From: Mesorhizobium sp.
GTDB lineage: Bacteria; Pseudomonadota; Alphaproteobacteria; Rhizobiales; Rhizobiaceae
Assembly: GCA_027492275.1 (NCBI GenBank)
Contig: JAPUFC010000048.1
Span: 3,138-67,137 of the forward strand
Length of the DNA stretch: 64,000 nt
Direction: 5' to 3'
Shown: positions 17,914 to 48,851 of the stretch, in pieces
How positions within the stretch are numbered: the stretch's first letter is position 1
Layout of the letters: each line of letters opens with the position of its first letter
Translations under genes and position numbers: made by a program
The notes under the pieces: model-generated
Told to the model about the DNA's origin: nothing
Seen by the model: only the letters and a program-made list of their open reading frames with translations
Database searches by the model: none

Positions 17914-19206
17914 ATGGGTTTCAGCGCCACGTCCTCCTGTTGCCGGCGCGACCGGCAGGCCGGCCTCCGGCAATGTCTGCGGGCCGGGGGCGCAAGGGCT
18001 GCCGCGCTGATTCTTCTCGCGCTGCTCGGCGGCTGCGGCGGCCGCCTCGAGGGGGTGCTGGTGCCGCTGACGGCCCCGCCCGCCTCTTCAGAGTCCGTCG
18101 TCAGCATGCTGGTGGCGACCAGCCGGCAGCCGACGGGCGATCCCGCGACCCTGTTCTCCGGCGAGCGCAGCACCGAGCTTTCGCTCACCGACATCGCGGT
18201 GTCTATCCCGCCGAATCGCCAGCCGGGCACCGTGCAGTGGCCGCGCAGGCTGCCGCCCGATCCGGCCACCGATTTCGCGGTGGTGCACGCGACGCCTGTC
18301 GACATGGCGGGCGCCCGCGCGTGGTTCCACGACCACAATCGCGGCGGGCGCGTGCTGGTTTTCGTGCACGGCTTCAACAACCGCTACGAGGACTCGGTCT
18401 TCCGCTTCAGCCAGATCGTCCACGATTCCGGCGCGGCGGTGACGCCCATCCTGTTCACCTGGCCGTCGCGGGCCCGCGTGGTCGACTACAATTACGACAA
18501 GGAAAGCACCAATTTCTCCCGCACCGCGCTGGAACAGACGCTGGAAGCGCTGGTGGAGGAGCGCGGCGTCACCGAGATCACGGTGATGGCGCATTCGATG
18601 GGCACGTGGCTGGCGATGGAATCGCTGCGCCAGATGGGCATCAGGCGCGGCGGCGTGCCGGCCAAGATCAAGGACGTGATGCTGGCCTCGCCCGACCTCG
18701 ACGTCGACGTCTTCACCCGGCAGTGGAACGAGCTGGGCGACCACAAACCGCATTTCACCATCTTCGTGTCGCGCGACGACAGGGCGCTCGCGCTGTCGCG
18801 GCTGATCTCGGGCGGCGTGCAGCGGGTCGGCGCGATCAATCCCGCCGAGGAGCCCTACCGGAGCCGGCTGGAGGAGGCCGGAATCGTCGCCATCGACCTG
18901 ACCAAGGTGAAGAGCGGCGACCGGCTGCACCACGGAAAGTTCGCCGAAAGTCCGCAGATCGTCCAGGCGATCGGCTCGCGGTTGATGAACGGCCAGACGC
19001 TCACCGACGAGCGGATCGGGCTCGGCGACCGCATCGGCACCGCCGTCGGCGGTACGATCGGGACCGTCGGCGTCATCGCCGGCACCGCCGTCAGCGCGCC
19101 GGTCAAAGTGATCGAGGGCCAGCCGCTCTACGAACGCCCGGACGGAGCCCGCCCGGCGGTACAGCGCGGCGTCCCGAACGAGGCCGAATCAGGGCAGGAC
19201 CACTAG
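17914..19206 (+). CDS. Alpha/beta hydrolase (DUF900-like esterase), predicted lipoprotein
   Basis: The 430-aa protein has a hydrophobic segment ending in a lipobox LGGC (Cys41), so it is probably exported and lipid-anchored. The hydrolase domain contains FVHGFNN (oxyanion), PILFTWPSRARVVDYNYDKES, and the nucleophile elbow AHSMGTWLA. These place it in the DUF900 (esterase/lipase-like) family. A glycine- and threonine-rich helix near residues 370-400 (GTAVGGTIGTVGVIAGTAV) resembles a glycine zipper. The ATG at 17914 is the nearest upstream start giving a signal sequence. It stands alone, followed by tRNA-Ser on the opposite strand. Confidence 0.85.
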   Translation: MGFSATSSCCRRDRQAGLRQCLRAGGARAAALILLALLGGCGGRLEGVLVPLTAPPASSESVVSMLVATSRQPTGDPATLFSGERSTELSLTDIAVSIPPNRQPGTVQWPRRLPPDPATDFAVVHATPVDMAGARAWFHDHNRGGRVLVFVHGFNNRYEDSVFRFSQIVHDSGAAVTPILFTWPSRARVVDYNYDKESTNFSRTALEQTLEALVEERGVTEITVMAHSMGTWLAMESLRQMGIRRGGVPAKIKDVMLASPDLDVDVFTRQWNELGDHKPHFTIFVSRDDRALALSRLISGGVQRVGAINPAEEPYRSRLEEAGIVAIDLTKVKSGDRLHHGKFAESPQIVQAIGSRLMNGQTLTDERIGLGDRIGTAVGGTIGTVGVIAGTAVSAPVKVIEGQPLYERPDGARPAVQRGVPNEAESGQDH

Positions 19207-19351
19207 AAGACCGGCGGAAGAATCGGCGTCGCCCATCTGCGCTTGCCGACCGCGAATCGGGTGTGTGTCCAGGGGACGGACAGCCCGGGCTAACCGCGTC
19301 ATGGTCAAAGGAGAGGCTGGAGGCAGAAAATGCGAATTGCGACTCGCGGCA

Positions 19352-19442
19352 TGGCGGAGAGGAAGGGATTCGAACCCTCGAGAAGCTTTTGACCTCTACT
19401 CCCTTAGCAGGGGAGCGCCTTCGACCACTCGGCCACCTCTCC
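19352..19442 (-). tRNA. tRNA-Ser (anticodon GCU)
   Basis: Read on the minus strand, a 7-bp acceptor stem GGAGAGG/CCTCTCC, discriminator G and encoded CCA are visible. The D arm is GCCGAGTGGTCGAAGGC, and the anticodon arm TCCCCTGCTAAGGGA carries anticodon GCT. A long variable arm follows, then the T arm GGGTTCGAATCCC. The class II structure and anticodon give serine, reading AGC/AGU. It is 157 bases from the end of the esterase gene. Confidence 0.97.
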
Positions 19443-19818
19443 GTCGCGCCGGTGGATAAAGAAAACGGCGGGCATAATCAATAAGCCTGCTCACCGGTCC
19501 GCAAGAATCGACTCCGCCTTGGATGATTCTGATGGAAACCGTGCCGTTTCAGGACCGCGCGTCCGCTCTGGCTCTGCATCGCGCTCCAGCACCGCCCGAC
19601 TTCGTGACATTTGCGCAACAGATGCACAGGATAGCGGCAGGTACGCGGGCTTGGCGGCAGGATCATGATTGAACCGTGGCGATGTATGGGTAATGTCGGC
19701 CTCGAAGAAGTCGCGGTGCGCGTCTTTTTCGTTTGGGGGATGGGGTAAGGGAACGCTGTCCTTCGGTAACAATAAGACCCGAACTTCGTTTTAAGAACTT
19801 TTGACTGGAGGTCAGAAA
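19443..19818. other. Non-coding region between tRNA-Ser and porin 1
   Basis: This 376-base stretch holds no convincing gene. It is comparatively AT-rich just before the porin (taagaacttttgactggagg) and should contain the porin promoter and 5' leader; GGAGG lies 8 bases before the ATG at 19819. Three GANTC sites are packed into 19505-19529 (GAATC, GACTC, GATTC). Confidence 0.6.
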
Positions 19819-43600: not shown

Positions 43601-46246
43601 ATGCGAACAGACACAGGCCAGATCTTCCGCCTGGAAGACTACCGCCCCAGCGACTACCTGATTCCACGCACGCGGCTGCTGTTCCGGCTCGACGCCGGCC
43701 GCACGCAGGTGCGCGTCGAGCTGACGATCCGGCGGCGCGACGGCATTTCGCCGGGGACGCCGCTGATTCTCGACGGCGACGGCCTCGCCCTCGGCAGCAT
43801 CGCGGTGGACGGCGCGGCGCTGCCGGCGGGCTCCTACACGGCCACGCCGGAGCGGCTGGCGATCGCGGTGCCGCCGGCGGCGCGGGAGTTCCGGCTGACG
43901 ATCGAGACGGAGATCTCGCCGTCGACCAACGCGGCGCTGATGGGCCTCTACCGGTCGAACGGCAACTACTGCACGCAGTGCGAGGCCGAAGGCTTCCGGC
44001 GCATCATCTATTTCCTCGACCGGCCGGACGTGCTGTCCGTCTATACGGTGCGCGTCGAGGCGGACCGGCGGGATGCGCCGCTGCTGCTGTCCAACGGCAA
44101 TCCGGTGGAAAGCGGCGAGCTCGAGGGCGGACGGCATTATGCGGTCTGGCACGACCCGTTTCCCAAACCCTCCTACCTGTTCGCGCTGGTCGCGGGCGAT
44201 CTCGGGCTGGTCGCCGACCGCTTCATCACCGCTTCGGGGCGCGAGGTGCGGCTCGGCATCCATGTCGAGCACGGCAAGGAGAGGCTGGCCGCCTATGCGA
44301 TGGACGCGCTGAAGCGCTCCATGCGCTGGGACGAGGAGGTTTACGGGCGCGAATACGACCTCGACGTGTTCAACATCGTCGCCGTCTCCGACTTCAACAT
44401 GGGGGCGATGGAGAACAAGGGCCTCAACGTCTTCAACGACAAATACGTGCTGGCCGACGACGACACCGCGACGGACGCCGACTTCGCCAATATCGAGGCG
44501 ATCATCGCGCATGAGTATTTCCACAATTGGACAGGCAACAGAATCACTTGCCGCGACTGGTTCCAGCTCTGCCTGAAGGAAGGCCTGACCGTCTTCCGCG
44601 ACCACGAGTTCTCGGCCGACCAGCGCTCGCGGCCGGTGAAGCGGATCGCCGAGGTGCGCACCCTGCGCGCGCACCAGTTTCCGGAAGACCAGGGACCGCT
44701 GGCGCATCCGGTGCGGCCGCGCCGCTACCGCGAGATCAACAACTTCTACACGGCGACCGTCTACGAGAAGGGATCGGAGGTGGTGCGCATGATCCGCACC
44801 ATCCTCGGCCGCGACACGTTCCGGAAGGGCATGGACCTCTATTTCGAGCGGCATGACGGCGACGCCGCGACGATCGAGGATTTCCTCAAGGTCTTCGAGG
44901 ACGCCTCCGGGCGCGACCTGTCGCAGTTCGCGCTGTGGTATCATCAGGCCGGCACGCCCAATGTCGCCGTGTCGACCGGCCACGATCCGGCGCGCGCCGA
45001 ATTCACGGTCGAGCTGGAGCAGTCGTCGCCGCCGACGCCGTCCGAAAGCCGTAAGCGGCTGATGCACATCCCGCTCGCCTTCGGGCTGGTCGGGCCGGAC
45101 GGGCGGGACATGGCGTTCACGGGCGTCGAGGGCGCCAGCGTCGAGAACGGCGTCATCCACCTGCGCAAGCGGCGTCACACGGTGCGTTTCTCCGGCGTGG
45201 CCGAACGGCCCGTCCTCTCCCTCAACCGCGGGTTTTCCGCGCCGGTGACGCTGGCCGTCGAGCAGCGCGCCGAGGATCAGGCGTTCCTGGCGCGCCACGA
45301 CAGCGACCCGTTCTCGCGCTGGCAGGCCTACAACAGCCTGCTGACCGACGCGCTGATCGGCGCGTTCCGGATGGCGCGCGGCGGCAAGGAGATGGTCTTC
45401 CTGCCGGCCGTGGTCGATCTCGCCGGCGCGATCGCGGCCGATGAGAGGCTGGAGCACGCGTTCCGCGCCCTTGCCGTGACGCTGCCGGGCGAGGCCGACA
45501 TCGCCCGCGAGATCGCGCAGAACATCGATCCCGACGCGGTGTTGGCGGCGCGCGACGGGCTGGCGCGCGCCATCGTCACGCAAAACCGCGACGCCTTCCG
45601 GCGAATCTACGAAGCGCTTCGCGACCCGGAGCCGTTCAGGCCGGACGCGGCCGGCGCGGGACGCCGTGCGCTGCGCAACGTGCTCCTCGATTTCCTGGCG
45701 CTGCTGCCGGGCGGGGTGGCGCTCGCGGCGTCCCATTTCGCGCAGGCTTCCAACATGACCGACCGCGCGGCGGCGATGGGCGTGCTGGCGCACAGGCATG
45801 GCGACAGCGCTGAGGCGCGCGACGCGCTTTCGGCCTTCGAGGCGCGGTATCGCGACGATCCGCTGGTGATGGACAAGTGGCTGATGATCCAGGCCACGGT
45901 GCCGGGTGCGGCGACGCTGGAACGGGTGAAGGCGCTGACCGCGCATCCCGGCTTCTCGATGGCCAACCCGAACCGGGTGCGCGCGCTGGTCGGCACCTTC
46001 GCCAGCGCCAACCAGACCGGTTTCCACCGGGCGGACGGGGCGGGCTACGCCTTCTTCGCCGAAGTCGTGCTGGGGATCGACGGGCGCAACCCGCAACTCG
46101 CCGCACGCCTCGCCACCGCGTTGCGCTCCTGGCGCTCGCTGGAGCCGGGACGCCGGGACAAGGCGCGCGAGACGCTGGCCGGCATGGCAGGGGCGAAGGG
46201 CCTGTCGGCCGATCTGCGCGACATCGTCGAGCGCACGCTGGCCTGA
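43601..46246 (+). CDS. pepN: Aminopeptidase N
   Basis: PepN is an M1 zinc aminopeptidase that finishes cytosolic protein breakdown. The 881-aa protein has the exopeptidase motif GAMENKG and the zinc site HEYFH at residues 304-308 with the third ligand Glu327 in KEGLTVFRD. The ITCRDWFQL segment between them is typical of the E. coli-like group. The C-terminal half is the helical domain. Length is normal. It diverges from the DMT transporter across 263 bases and lies upstream of the PleC-like kinase, with 250 bases between. Confidence 0.95.
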   Translation: MRTDTGQIFRLEDYRPSDYLIPRTRLLFRLDAGRTQVRVELTIRRRDGISPGTPLILDGDGLALGSIAVDGAALPAGSYTATPERLAIAVPPAAREFRLTIETEISPSTNAALMGLYRSNGNYCTQCEAEGFRRIIYFLDRPDVLSVYTVRVEADRRDAPLLLSNGNPVESGELEGGRHYAVWHDPFPKPSYLFALVAGDLGLVADRFITASGREVRLGIHVEHGKERLAAYAMDALKRSMRWDEEVYGREYDLDVFNIVAVSDFNMGAMENKGLNVFNDKYVLADDDTATDADFANIEAIIAHEYFHNWTGNRITCRDWFQLCLKEGLTVFRDHEFSADQRSRPVKRIAEVRTLRAHQFPEDQGPLAHPVRPRRYREINNFYTATVYEKGSEVVRMIRTILGRDTFRKGMDLYFERHDGDAATIEDFLKVFEDASGRDLSQFALWYHQAGTPNVAVSTGHDPARAEFTVELEQSSPPTPSESRKRLMHIPLAFGLVGPDGRDMAFTGVEGASVENGVIHLRKRRHTVRFSGVAERPVLSLNRGFSAPVTLAVEQRAEDQAFLARHDSDPFSRWQAYNSLLTDALIGAFRMARGGKEMVFLPAVVDLAGAIAADERLEHAFRALAVTLPGEADIAREIAQNIDPDAVLAARDGLARAIVTQNRDAFRRIYEALRDPEPFRPDAAGAGRRALRNVLLDFLALLPGGVALAASHFAQASNMTDRAAAMGVLAHRHGDSAEARDALSAFEARYRDDPLVMDKWLMIQATVPGAATLERVKALTAHPGFSMANPNRVRALVGTFASANQTGFHRADGAGYAFFAEVVLGIDGRNPQLAARLATALRSWRSLEPGRRDKARETLAGMAGAKGLSADLRDIVERTLA

Positions 46247-46347
46247 CGCGAAGTCCTCTTCGTCATTCCGGGTTCTGCTGCGTGGCCCCGGACTGACGAA
46301 CGTGGGAAAGCGGAAGCAGCCCTCGGGGGCCGCGCGTCTGTCACGGT

Positions 46348-46451
46348 GAGTCTTTTCGGACTCGCCCGGCGGAAATCGACCGTGCGCGAATCGTTTTTCA
46401 GCCCCTACCACTGGACAAGCCGAATCACGAATGATTCCTTAATGACGATTC
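46348..46451. promoter_or_regulatory. Cluster of six GANTC (CcrM-type) sites upstream of the PleC-like kinase
   Basis: GANTC occurs at 46348, 46359, 46388, 46422, 46433 and 46447, six sites in 104 bases. From base composition fewer than one is expected. In alphaproteobacteria CcrM methylates GANTC and hemimethylation times cell-cycle promoters. The cluster ends 45 bases before the start of the kinase gene. Confidence 0.6.
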
Positions 46452-46496
46452 GGGCGTGCGGTGTAGCCGGATCATTCTGGGGATATGTGGGGATAG

Positions 46497-48851
46497 ATGG
46501 CCATGGCAGCGGACGCGTGGAGCGCGCCCGATCGGTTGAGCTTTTTCCGGCGGAACCGCCAGCCCGGCGGTCTTTCGGGCAATGCGCGGCTGCTCGCCGC
46601 GCCGGCCTACCGACGCCTGCTGGCGGCCGAGCCGATCCTGCGCCAGTCCATCCCGGCGCTGATAGTCATCTTCCTCGTCTTCATCGCAGGCGCGCGGTTC
46701 CTGTCCATGATGGGATGGCGCGAGGAGATTGAGCGCGACGCGCGCGCCATGCTGGCCATCGCCGCCAGCGAGCTGTCCAGTTCGCTCGCCACCGCCGGCA
46801 AGGACGGCGAGCTGCGGCAGACGGTCGACCGGGCGAGCCAGCGCCTGTCGGTCATGGGCCGCTTCGGCCTCGTGGCCACCGATGGCGACTACGAGATCAA
46901 GGCCGCCACGGCGGCGCTGGGCGACTGGGAAGGACGCGCGCTCGATTCGCTGGTCACCGACGGCCAGCCGCTGTTCCTGTTCGGCGAGCGCGCCGGGGTC
47001 ATGGAGGTGTCGATCGGCGGGCGCAAATGGTTCGCCGCGCTGGACCAGACCCCCGACCGCGCCCACGCGGCGGCGGCGCTGATCGCCAAGGACGCCGTGT
47101 TCGCCGAATGGCGCAGGTCCGTGTCGATGAACGTGACGCTGTTCGCGATGACGGCGATCGTACTGCTCGTCATCCTCTACGCCTATTTCAGCCAGGCGGC
47201 GCGGGCGCAGGCCGCCGACCGCATCTACCAGGAGGCGCACCAGCGCATCGACCTCGCGCTGGTGCGCGGACGCTGCGGCCTGTGGGACTGGGACATGGTG
47301 CGCGGACGCATGTACTGGTCGCGCTCCATGTACGAGATGCTGGGCTACGAGCCGAGCGACCTGATGCTGTCCTTCGGCGAGGTGGCGCAGATCATCCAGA
47401 GCGAGGATTGCGACCTGTTCGACCTCGCCAACCGGATCGTGGCACGCGAGATCGACCAGATCGACCAGGTGTTCCGCATGCGCCATGCCGACGGGCGCTG
47501 GGTGTGGATGCGGGCGCGCGCGCAGGTCGTGGACCCCGACGCCCCGGAAATCCAGCTCATCGGCATCGCCGTCGACGTGACGGAGCAGCGGCATCTGGCC
47601 ATGCGCTCGGAGGTCGCGGACCTGCGGCTGCGCACGGCGATCGAGAACATCAACCAGTCCTTCGTGCTGTGGGACGCCGCCGGCCGGCTGATCATGTGCA
47701 ACTCGAAATTCCAGAAGGACCACGGGCTGGCCGACCGCGACGTGGTGCCCGGCACGCAGCGCGCCGTGGTCGAAGAGCGCATGCTGGACCTGAAGATGGA
47801 GCGCCGGCTGCCCAATGCGGGCGGACCGCAGGGCGGCGCCACCTTCCAGCGGCAGCTCGCGGACGGGCGCTGGATGCAGGTCAACGAATTGAGGACGCGC
47901 GACGGCGGCATCGTCTCGGTGGGTTCCGACATCACCCAGATCAAGCAGCACCAGGAAAAGCTGGTGGAGAGCGAGCGGCGGCTGATGGCGACGATCCACG
48001 ACCTCAGCCTGGCGCGCCGGGCCGAGCACGAGCACGCCGCCGAGCTGGTCGAGCTCAACCGCAAATACATGCGCGAGACGGAGCGCGCCGAAGCCGCCAA
48101 CCGCGCCAAGTCCGAGTTCCTCGCCAATATGAGCCACGAGCTGCGCACCCCGCTCAACGCCATCATCGGCTTCTCCGAGGTGATGACCTCGGAGCTGTTC
48201 GGCCCGATGGGCTCGGAGCGCTACAAGGAATACGTCAGGGACATCCAGAGCAGCGGCACCTACCTTCTGGGCGTCATCAACGACATCCTCGACATGTCCA
48301 AGATCGAGGCCGGCCAGTTCTCCATGGAGCGGGAGGAGATCGATCTGTGCCCGCTGATCCACGAGACCGTGCGGGTCATCTCCTTGCAGGCGGCCGGCAA
48401 GGCCATCACCGTCGAGACGCAGATCGCCGACTCCATCGAGCTCTACGCCGACCGTCGCGCGGTGAAGCAGATCGCGCTGAACCTGTTGTCCAACGCCGTG
48501 AAGTTCACCGGCCAGGGCGGGCACATCACCGTGCGGGCGCGCAACGTGGCGGACGCGCTGATGCTGTCGATCGAGGACAATGGCTGCGGCATTCCCAAGC
48601 ACGCGCTGGCCAAGCTCGGCCGTCCCTTCGAACAGGTGCAGAACCAGTTCTCGAAGAACCATACGGGCTCGGGCCTGGGGCTGGCGATCTCGCGCTCGCT
48701 GGCAGAGCTGCATGGCGGCTCGCTGCGCATCCGCTCGACCGATGGTTTCGGCACCATCGTCGCGGTGCGCATCCCGTTCGTGTCGGCCGGCAAGACGGCG
48801 GCCAACGCCGCCGGACCAGCCGAGAAGAAAGTCGCCCGGAAAGCCGCCTGA
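46497..48851 (+). CDS. pleC: PAS-domain sensor histidine kinase, PleC-like
   Basis: The 784-aa inner-membrane kinase has two membrane segments (about 50-70 and 205-230) around a periplasmic domain. Two PAS regions follow (GRCGLWDWDMVRGRMYWS... and AIENINQSFVLWDAAGR). The HisKA box has His547 in NMSHELRTPLNAIIGFSEVM, then ELFGPMG and NDILDMSKIEAG. The HATPase domain has NLLSNAVKFT, DNGCGI and GSGLGLAIS. The ELFGPxG segment and closeness to glnE match PleC of Sinorhizobium, a DivK kinase/phosphatase in cell-cycle control. Exact orthology is inferred. Upstream are six GANTC sites; a hairpin terminator follows. Confidence 0.85.
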   Translation: MAMAADAWSAPDRLSFFRRNRQPGGLSGNARLLAAPAYRRLLAAEPILRQSIPALIVIFLVFIAGARFLSMMGWREEIERDARAMLAIAASELSSSLATAGKDGELRQTVDRASQRLSVMGRFGLVATDGDYEIKAATAALGDWEGRALDSLVTDGQPLFLFGERAGVMEVSIGGRKWFAALDQTPDRAHAAAALIAKDAVFAEWRRSVSMNVTLFAMTAIVLLVILYAYFSQAARAQAADRIYQEAHQRIDLALVRGRCGLWDWDMVRGRMYWSRSMYEMLGYEPSDLMLSFGEVAQIIQSEDCDLFDLANRIVAREIDQIDQVFRMRHADGRWVWMRARAQVVDPDAPEIQLIGIAVDVTEQRHLAMRSEVADLRLRTAIENINQSFVLWDAAGRLIMCNSKFQKDHGLADRDVVPGTQRAVVEERMLDLKMERRLPNAGGPQGGATFQRQLADGRWMQVNELRTRDGGIVSVGSDITQIKQHQEKLVESERRLMATIHDLSLARRAEHEHAAELVELNRKYMRETERAEAANRAKSEFLANMSHELRTPLNAIIGFSEVMTSELFGPMGSERYKEYVRDIQSSGTYLLGVINDILDMSKIEAGQFSMEREEIDLCPLIHETVRVISLQAAGKAITVETQIADSIELYADRRAVKQIALNLLSNAVKFTGQGGHITVRARNVADALMLSIEDNGCGIPKHALAKLGRPFEQVQNQFSKNHTGSGLGLAISRSLAELHGGSLRIRSTDGFGTIVAVRIPFVSAGKTAANAAGPAEKKVARKAA

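Follow-up and report, generated by a model that had tools for sequence, protein, structure and literature searches.

The window, by which we mean the whole 64 kb stretch of Mesorhizobium sp. DNA that was analyzed, encodes on its plus strand a sensor histidine kinase of 784 amino acids (46497–48851), preceded on the same strand by pepN, the gene of aminopeptidase N (43601–46246; TIGR02414, 1203.7 bits against a cut-off of 718.2). The Pfam matches of the kinase are PAS domains, HisKA, and HATPase_c, which is the architecture expected of PleC, and we keep for the product the name PleC-like from the preliminary description, as a putative kinase/phosphatase of DivK. Among the best 25 of the 85 NCBIfam matches to the kinase there was no PleC model, and the DivJ model scored 224 bits against a cut-off of 1000. 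The same genome encodes CcrM (match to the CcrMI chain 6pbd, E 5.3e-167) and GcrA (PF07750, 194.3 bits, cut-off 26.9).

The two genes are separated by a 250-bp gap with 60% GC (46247–46496). The preliminary description had placed six GANTC sequences here, at 46348, 46359, 46388, 46422, 46433, and 46447, and had called them densely packed upstream of the PleC-like kinase. All six were found at these positions, and they form the densest GANTC group in the window. The data showed that GANTC is avoided in the window, with 101 sites present versus the 313 that dinucleotide shuffles predict. A span of 104 bp should hold 0.16 sites at this density, and none of the other spans of that length in the window matches the six; when the 101 sites were redistributed uniformly, six were reached in 0 of 5000 trials, with a mean maximum of 2.7. 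Within the gap the six sites compare with a shuffle mean of 1.7 (P ~0.005), and this enrichment, taken alone, is a modest result. The strong evidence comes from relatives, in which spacing is conserved. Another dense patch, with eight GANTC in ~345 bp (19186–19529), surrounds a tRNA-Ser gene on the minus strand (19352–19442).

The sites at 46422, 46433, and 46447 are located within what looks like the core promoter of the pleC-like gene; its elements and its start are predictions from spacing and conservation. A putative −35-like element, TGGACA (46412–46417, plus strand as are all features of the gap), is separated by 4 bp from the first of these sites, site 1 (GAATC, 46422–46426), which lies in the spacer and whose context CGAATCA reads as TGATTCG on the minus strand. 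Site 2 (GATTC, 46433–46437) overlaps a predicted −10-like hexamer, TTCCTT (46435–46440), which was placed by spacing and alignment at a distance of 17 bp from TGGACA. The transcription start is expected ~7 bp past this hexamer, where it coincides with site 3 (GATTC, 46447–46451), which is also the 5′ arm of a putative RNA hairpin. As in promoters of the CcrM/GcrA type, GANTC is thus found in the predicted core promoter, at 46422 between the −35- and −10-like elements and at 46433 at them. The TTCCTT hexamer is a weak match to the sigma70 −10, and the −10 is poor in this family; TCAAAT is the hexamer in many rows from the order's other families, and the −10 region of rows outside the family, within the order, is often GATTCAAAT or GAATCAAT.

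Sixty-one genomes of the family, probably Rhizobiaceae in the broad sense, were searched for the kinase, and 60 upstream regions were read; in the small genome G006 the match was weak only (E 1e-12). One row, L021, in which the contig ends 12 bp upstream, was dropped from all family counts, leaving 59 genomes. With the best-scoring TRGACW start taken in each row, a choice that favors the module and was applied alike to the shuffled control, site 1 was present in 55 of the 59 genomes (0.24 in shuffles), site 2 in 50 (0.46), and site 3 in 50 (0.63), while the arm that pairs with site 3, referred to as site 4, was GANTC in 24. The variable base of site 1 was A in 41 cases, T in 13, and G in 1, whereas that of site 2 was T in every case. 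The spacing of the sites was likewise constant. Among the 55 family gaps with a located pepN end (L021, L030, L037, L041, and L061 of the 60 rows being omitted), GANTC pairs at +11 occurred in 39 (0.36 expected), at +25 in 41 (0.32 expected), and both together in 30 (0.005 expected); a fourth GANTC is often found near +46. These gaps contain 242 GANTC in 14,086 bp (17.2 per kb) compared with 69 in shuffles, while the pepN parts of the same loci contain 63 in 68,414 bp (0.9 per kb) versus 350 expected. The −35-like element is conserved as well: when 48 family rows were anchored on GANTC, and hence independently of this element, its six positions were T in 46, G in 42, G in 46, A in 46, C in 47, and A in 45 of them. 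The element is lacking in L037. In one branch of the family CGAATCA at site 1 is replaced by its reverse complement TGATTCG, which is still GANTC, and from one branch site 2 is absent.

The three remaining sites behave differently. The pair at 46348–46363, GAGTC-N6-GACTC, is located outside the conserved module and forms the arms of a hairpin after pepN; the fold of 46340–46375 has a predicted energy of −16.3 kcal/mol (z −2.6) and no T run, and in the examined relatives the best hairpins of the interval from pepN to the module differ in place and sequence. The site at 46388–46392 precedes the −35-like element by 24 bp. At the matching offset from the −35 (within 1 bp), GANTC was found in 2 of 57 relatives for 46348, in 3 of 57 for 46359, and in 0 of 57 for 46388, and from this comparison the three sites look incidental. 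Enrichment in orthologous promoters, on which the idea of a methylation-timed gene had been made to depend, was therefore seen for 46422, 46433, and 46447, where the spacing is constant, and was not seen for 46348, 46359, and 46388. What the window contains is a real signal, one instance of a deeply conserved, predicted promoter element diluted by three incidental sites. An accumulation of GANTC by chance in an A+T-richer gap might be considered in view of the three unconserved sites and the gap-only P of ~0.005, but spacing that stays constant across genera is incompatible with chance, which leaves this explanation next to no probability; it is refuted for 46422–46451 and may stand for 46388.

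To follow the module beyond the family, a search at E 1e-80 was made in 61 genomes of the order, with matches in 46, of which 44 were outside the family. Thirty of these 44, from 26 families, were chosen for their better scores (E up to 5e-164) and for a match start within the first 44 residues. TRGACW was accompanied by site 2 in 29 of the 30 genomes (0.14 in shuffles), by site 3 in 26 (0.13), and by site 1 in 12 (0.05), and in 24 of 25 rows anchored on a GANTC pair TRGACA was found upstream. The variable base of site 2 was T in 21 and A in 8 of these genomes, while that of site 3 was T in 74 of the 76 family and order-level genomes having the site. No single site is indispensable, since one family branch is without site 2 and 18 of the 30 order-level genomes are without site 1. 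Outside the order, a match at E 1e-90 was obtained in 6 of 142 genomes including our own, which gave five homologues; two of them show the form (L235 with all three sites, L236 with sites 2 and 3), and this form was not found in the other three. A scan of 289 genomes of the class for an AAAT-type three-site pattern with at most 2 mismatches returned one genome with a poor, chance-like match, which says little about the order, because only 3 of these genomes besides our own were labeled as belonging to it.

Among the scan matches listed, the module is largely confined to one locus. When the genome collection was scanned with the family form of the pattern, at least 119 stretches were obtained, and 115 of those listed are at the pepN–pleC locus, 95 with both genes in place and 20 with one gene within the stretch; four listed stretches (L122, L141, L158, and L160) are chance stretches unrelated to it. 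Over 75 listed loci, GANTC had a density of 32.9 per kb in the 100 bp that begin at the −35, of 8.3 per kb in the preceding 100 bp, and of 0.2–2.7 per kb in the bins from −2000 to −200, while a few bins of the kinase gene rise to 4.2–5.6 per kb. In our own genome TKGACA-N4-GANTC occurs four times, once at the pleC-like promoter. GANTC-N6-GANTC has 14 occurrences there, compared with 3 of the reversed control, and two of the 14 are inside the 104-bp cluster. Among the scan matches were also L116 and L147, whose record titles are Bacillus subtilis SK6B4 and MAG Arenimonas sp.; L147 carries a rhizobial-type pepN and L116 a rhizobial-type pepN–pleC, and both records are probably mislabeled or contaminated.

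Site 3 is also part of a stem–loop, GATTCGG...CCGGATC (46447–46473), in the predicted 5′ UTR, in which it pairs with the fourth arm as GATTCGG/CCGRATC. The hairpin was analyzed in 124 distinct fragments, which consist of 53 of the 60 family rows and 75 of 80 listed scan loci, less 4 duplicates. Seven family rows failing a stricter start pattern (L021, L035, L037, L045, L056, L059, and L060) are outside this set, as are the four chance stretches and the cut locus L137 from the scan; L161–L199 were not used. Counts of sites 1 and 2 in the fragments are not independent, because the fragments were chosen for site 1 and the scan rows also for site 2, whereas the counts in the 59 genomes are independent of this selection. 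The downstream arm, CCGGATC in the window, is not GANTC there but is GANTC in 64 of the 124 fragments.

The probing of the stem by sequence variation supports pairing in RNA. Its cells were paired in 92% of cases, compared with at most 59% when the arms were slid, and the seven pairs contained 101 G-U and 11 A-C cells over the 124 fragments. On a tree of 115 taxa, which omits the 9 fragments without a usable pepN end, the stem underwent 31 changes from Watson-Crick to G-U, 6 from Watson-Crick to A-C, 7 double changes from one Watson-Crick pair to another (examples of compensation being L005, L091, and L112), and also 22 single changes to other mismatches. The promoter dyad formed by sites 1 and 2 served as a control on the same tree, and it showed 14 changes to G-U, 4 to A-C, and no double change. 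Both the covariation and the tolerance of G-U on the sense strand that a sense-strand hairpin should display were thus observed. The excess of G-U is not a clean proof, because the control leans the same way (14 vs. 4, P 0.03, compared with 31 vs. 6, P 4e-5, in the hairpin), and the seven double changes versus none carry more weight. Predicted folds hold the stem in 114 of the 124 fragments with a mean z of −1.9, in regions whose ends were chosen at the arms, while the leader in the window itself is no stabler than shuffles (z +0.70 over 55 nt; z −1.1 for the stem–loop alone). Arms that have lost GANTC often still pair, through G-U, and hence RNA pairing is a separate constraint on these bases. 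As site 3 is a hairpin arm too, its count overstates the methylation signal, and its nearly invariant N, which a hairpin arm would give, counts against the reading by methylation. In the order-level rows the stems had on average 6.5 pairs compared with 5.9 in shuffles (27 of 30 rows), and the hairpin is therefore not established outside the family, although several of these rows have stems of 8–10 pairs with a different sequence. No Rfam family was detected at 46000–46800, where three matches (E 2.9–4.6) were far under their gathering scores. In several relatives TGCGGC was seen by eye to recur in the hairpin loop and downstream, before the ribosome site.

We consider it somewhat probable, at roughly 60%, that the core promoter of the pleC-like gene is built on three phased GANTC sites through which methylation and GcrA binding link its transcription to replication. 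CcrM would methylate sites 1–3, and the methylated sites would let GcrA and the sigma70 polymerase open the weak −10. Behind the replication fork the sites would stay hemimethylated until CcrM returns, and transcription of pleC would for this reason change with replication. Methylation is expected to activate, as it does at Caulobacter promoters that have GANTC between −35 and −10; repression is possible, and the sign of the effect is left open by a GANTC-rich A. tumefaciens promoter that is less active when methylated (PMC11514494). The transcript would start with the conserved hairpin, which most likely protects the short leader or sets its translation.

In anatomy the module strongly resembles CcrM/GcrA promoters; the function we infer. 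In Caulobacter, ctrA P1 and podJ P2 are described with GANTC in the −35/−10 region, at ~−28 and ~−24, and a GANTC between −10 and −35 accompanies activation of start sites at 40–60 min (PMC4287350). Caulobacter CcrM/GcrA promoters have a TGATTCG-type site, and this sequence, or YGAKTCK, is tied to activation by GcrA in that species, while the Brevundimonas GcrA is reported to be without a preference for YGAKTCK (PMC7987155). In the window site 1 fits YGAKTCK, and in the fragments it is fitted by site 1 in 116 of 124 (chosen for this site), by site 3 in 57 of 89, by site 4 in 62 of 64, and mostly not by site 2 (33 of 116). The Caulobacter pleC gene is alike, at the level of the gene, in that it is bound by GcrA in a CcrM-dependent manner, as one of 80 loci at which efficient binding of GcrA requires CcrM; the GcrA proteins of S. 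meliloti and B. abortus have their best binding with fully methylated probes (PMC3667746). The promoter described here differs from those of Caulobacter in that its three sites are phased, with one of them in the −10 and another at the start, and in its hairpin, whereas of 96 Caulobacter cell-cycle start sites with upstream GANTC 11 have more than one (PMC4287350). In A. tumefaciens, the gcrA promoter has six GANTC in 250 bp and is less active when methylated, and the repE promoter has three, one of them in the predicted core promoter (PMC11514494). These are other genes, likened by description rather than by sequence, and the sign at gcrA is opposite to the expectation; pleC is absent from the main text of that CcrM-depletion study (PMC11514494). 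For S. meliloti pleC, the same gene by name, a CtrA motif is described upstream of the start site (PMC3616915), and the sRNA EcpR1 altered transcript levels of pleC and not its translational fusion (PMC4414408); the passages on pleC in these S. meliloti reports do not mention GANTC at the gene.

The same bases could also be kept only as the −10 (site 2), the start region, and the RNA hairpin (site 3 and its partner), with methylation regulating nothing. The overlap of site 2 with the −10, the covariation around site 3, and the continued G-U pairing of arms that are no longer GANTC all fit this explanation, but site 1 is outside both the −10 and the hairpin and yet is GANTC in 55 of 59 genomes with a varying N. 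The N of site 2 varies as well across the order (T 21, A 8), and the adjoining pepN coding DNA avoids GANTC (63 vs. 350 expected), so that we regard conservation for promoter and hairpin alone as rather improbable. That the GANTC content is a by-product of an operator for an ordinary dimeric regulator is suggested by the inverted repeat GAATCA-N4-TGATTC, which sites 1 and 2 form in the window and in most family rows, with Watson-Crick dyad cells in 618 of 690. The dyad has, however, become a direct repeat or lost one half, while site 1 is still GANTC, in the branch that holds L036, L039, L052, and L055 as well as in rows outside the family; no double compensation occurred at the dyad on the 115-taxon tree, and the matches listed in the family-form scan tie the module to a single locus, which is unusual for the operator of a regulon. 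An operator is thus unlikely.

Another candidate for the cell-cycle input is CtrA, with the GANTC sites being secondary. In the family, 10 of 59 rows have a GGTTAA box, often with TAA-N7-TTA, at a distance of 26–27 bp upstream of the −35-like element, and CtrA of S. meliloti is reported to bind at pleC; by the patterns tried no such box was present in the window or in L002–L015, and the change of pleC upon CtrA depletion in S. meliloti is given as not significant (PMC4433202), which makes this very improbable for the module. The box was seen at a constant 26 bp in L026, L027, L029, L030, L038, L040, L044, L047, L048, and L056, and at −27 in L058.

If the promoter, as we propose, depends on methylation, replication in rhizobia and related bacteria would have a direct tie to the DivK phosphatase, and through it to CtrA. 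More tentatively, the start-point bases may be coded doubly, as DNA methylation marks and as the 5′ arm of an mRNA hairpin, beside the marks in the spacer and the −10, and pleC could then act as a reporter of the fork with a controlled leader. Judged from the alignments, the DNA part would span most of the order's families examined and two of five homologues outside it, while the hairpin is established in the family only. A 2010 survey of the alphaproteobacteria stated that counting GANTC upstream of cell-cycle genes does not allow methylation control to be derived (PMC2877005), and the promoters of Ensifer cell-cycle genes, as a set, are reported as not enriched in GANTC (PMC8725594); here it is constant spacing, not counts, that singles out one promoter with precise, mutable positions. 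In the open-access literature searched, a description of the module was not found, and one may be in print.

Zero GANTC are located within ~600 bp upstream of the listed start of ccrM (L079). Four GANTC lie at 1086–1143 of L079, in the short gap between ccrM and a convergent gene, presumably mutY-like. Upstream of gcrA in our own genome (L078, G000:C65) there are five GANTC, at −181, −163, −150, −42, and −35 from the likely start, which recalls the six described before A. tumefaciens gcrA (PMC11514494).
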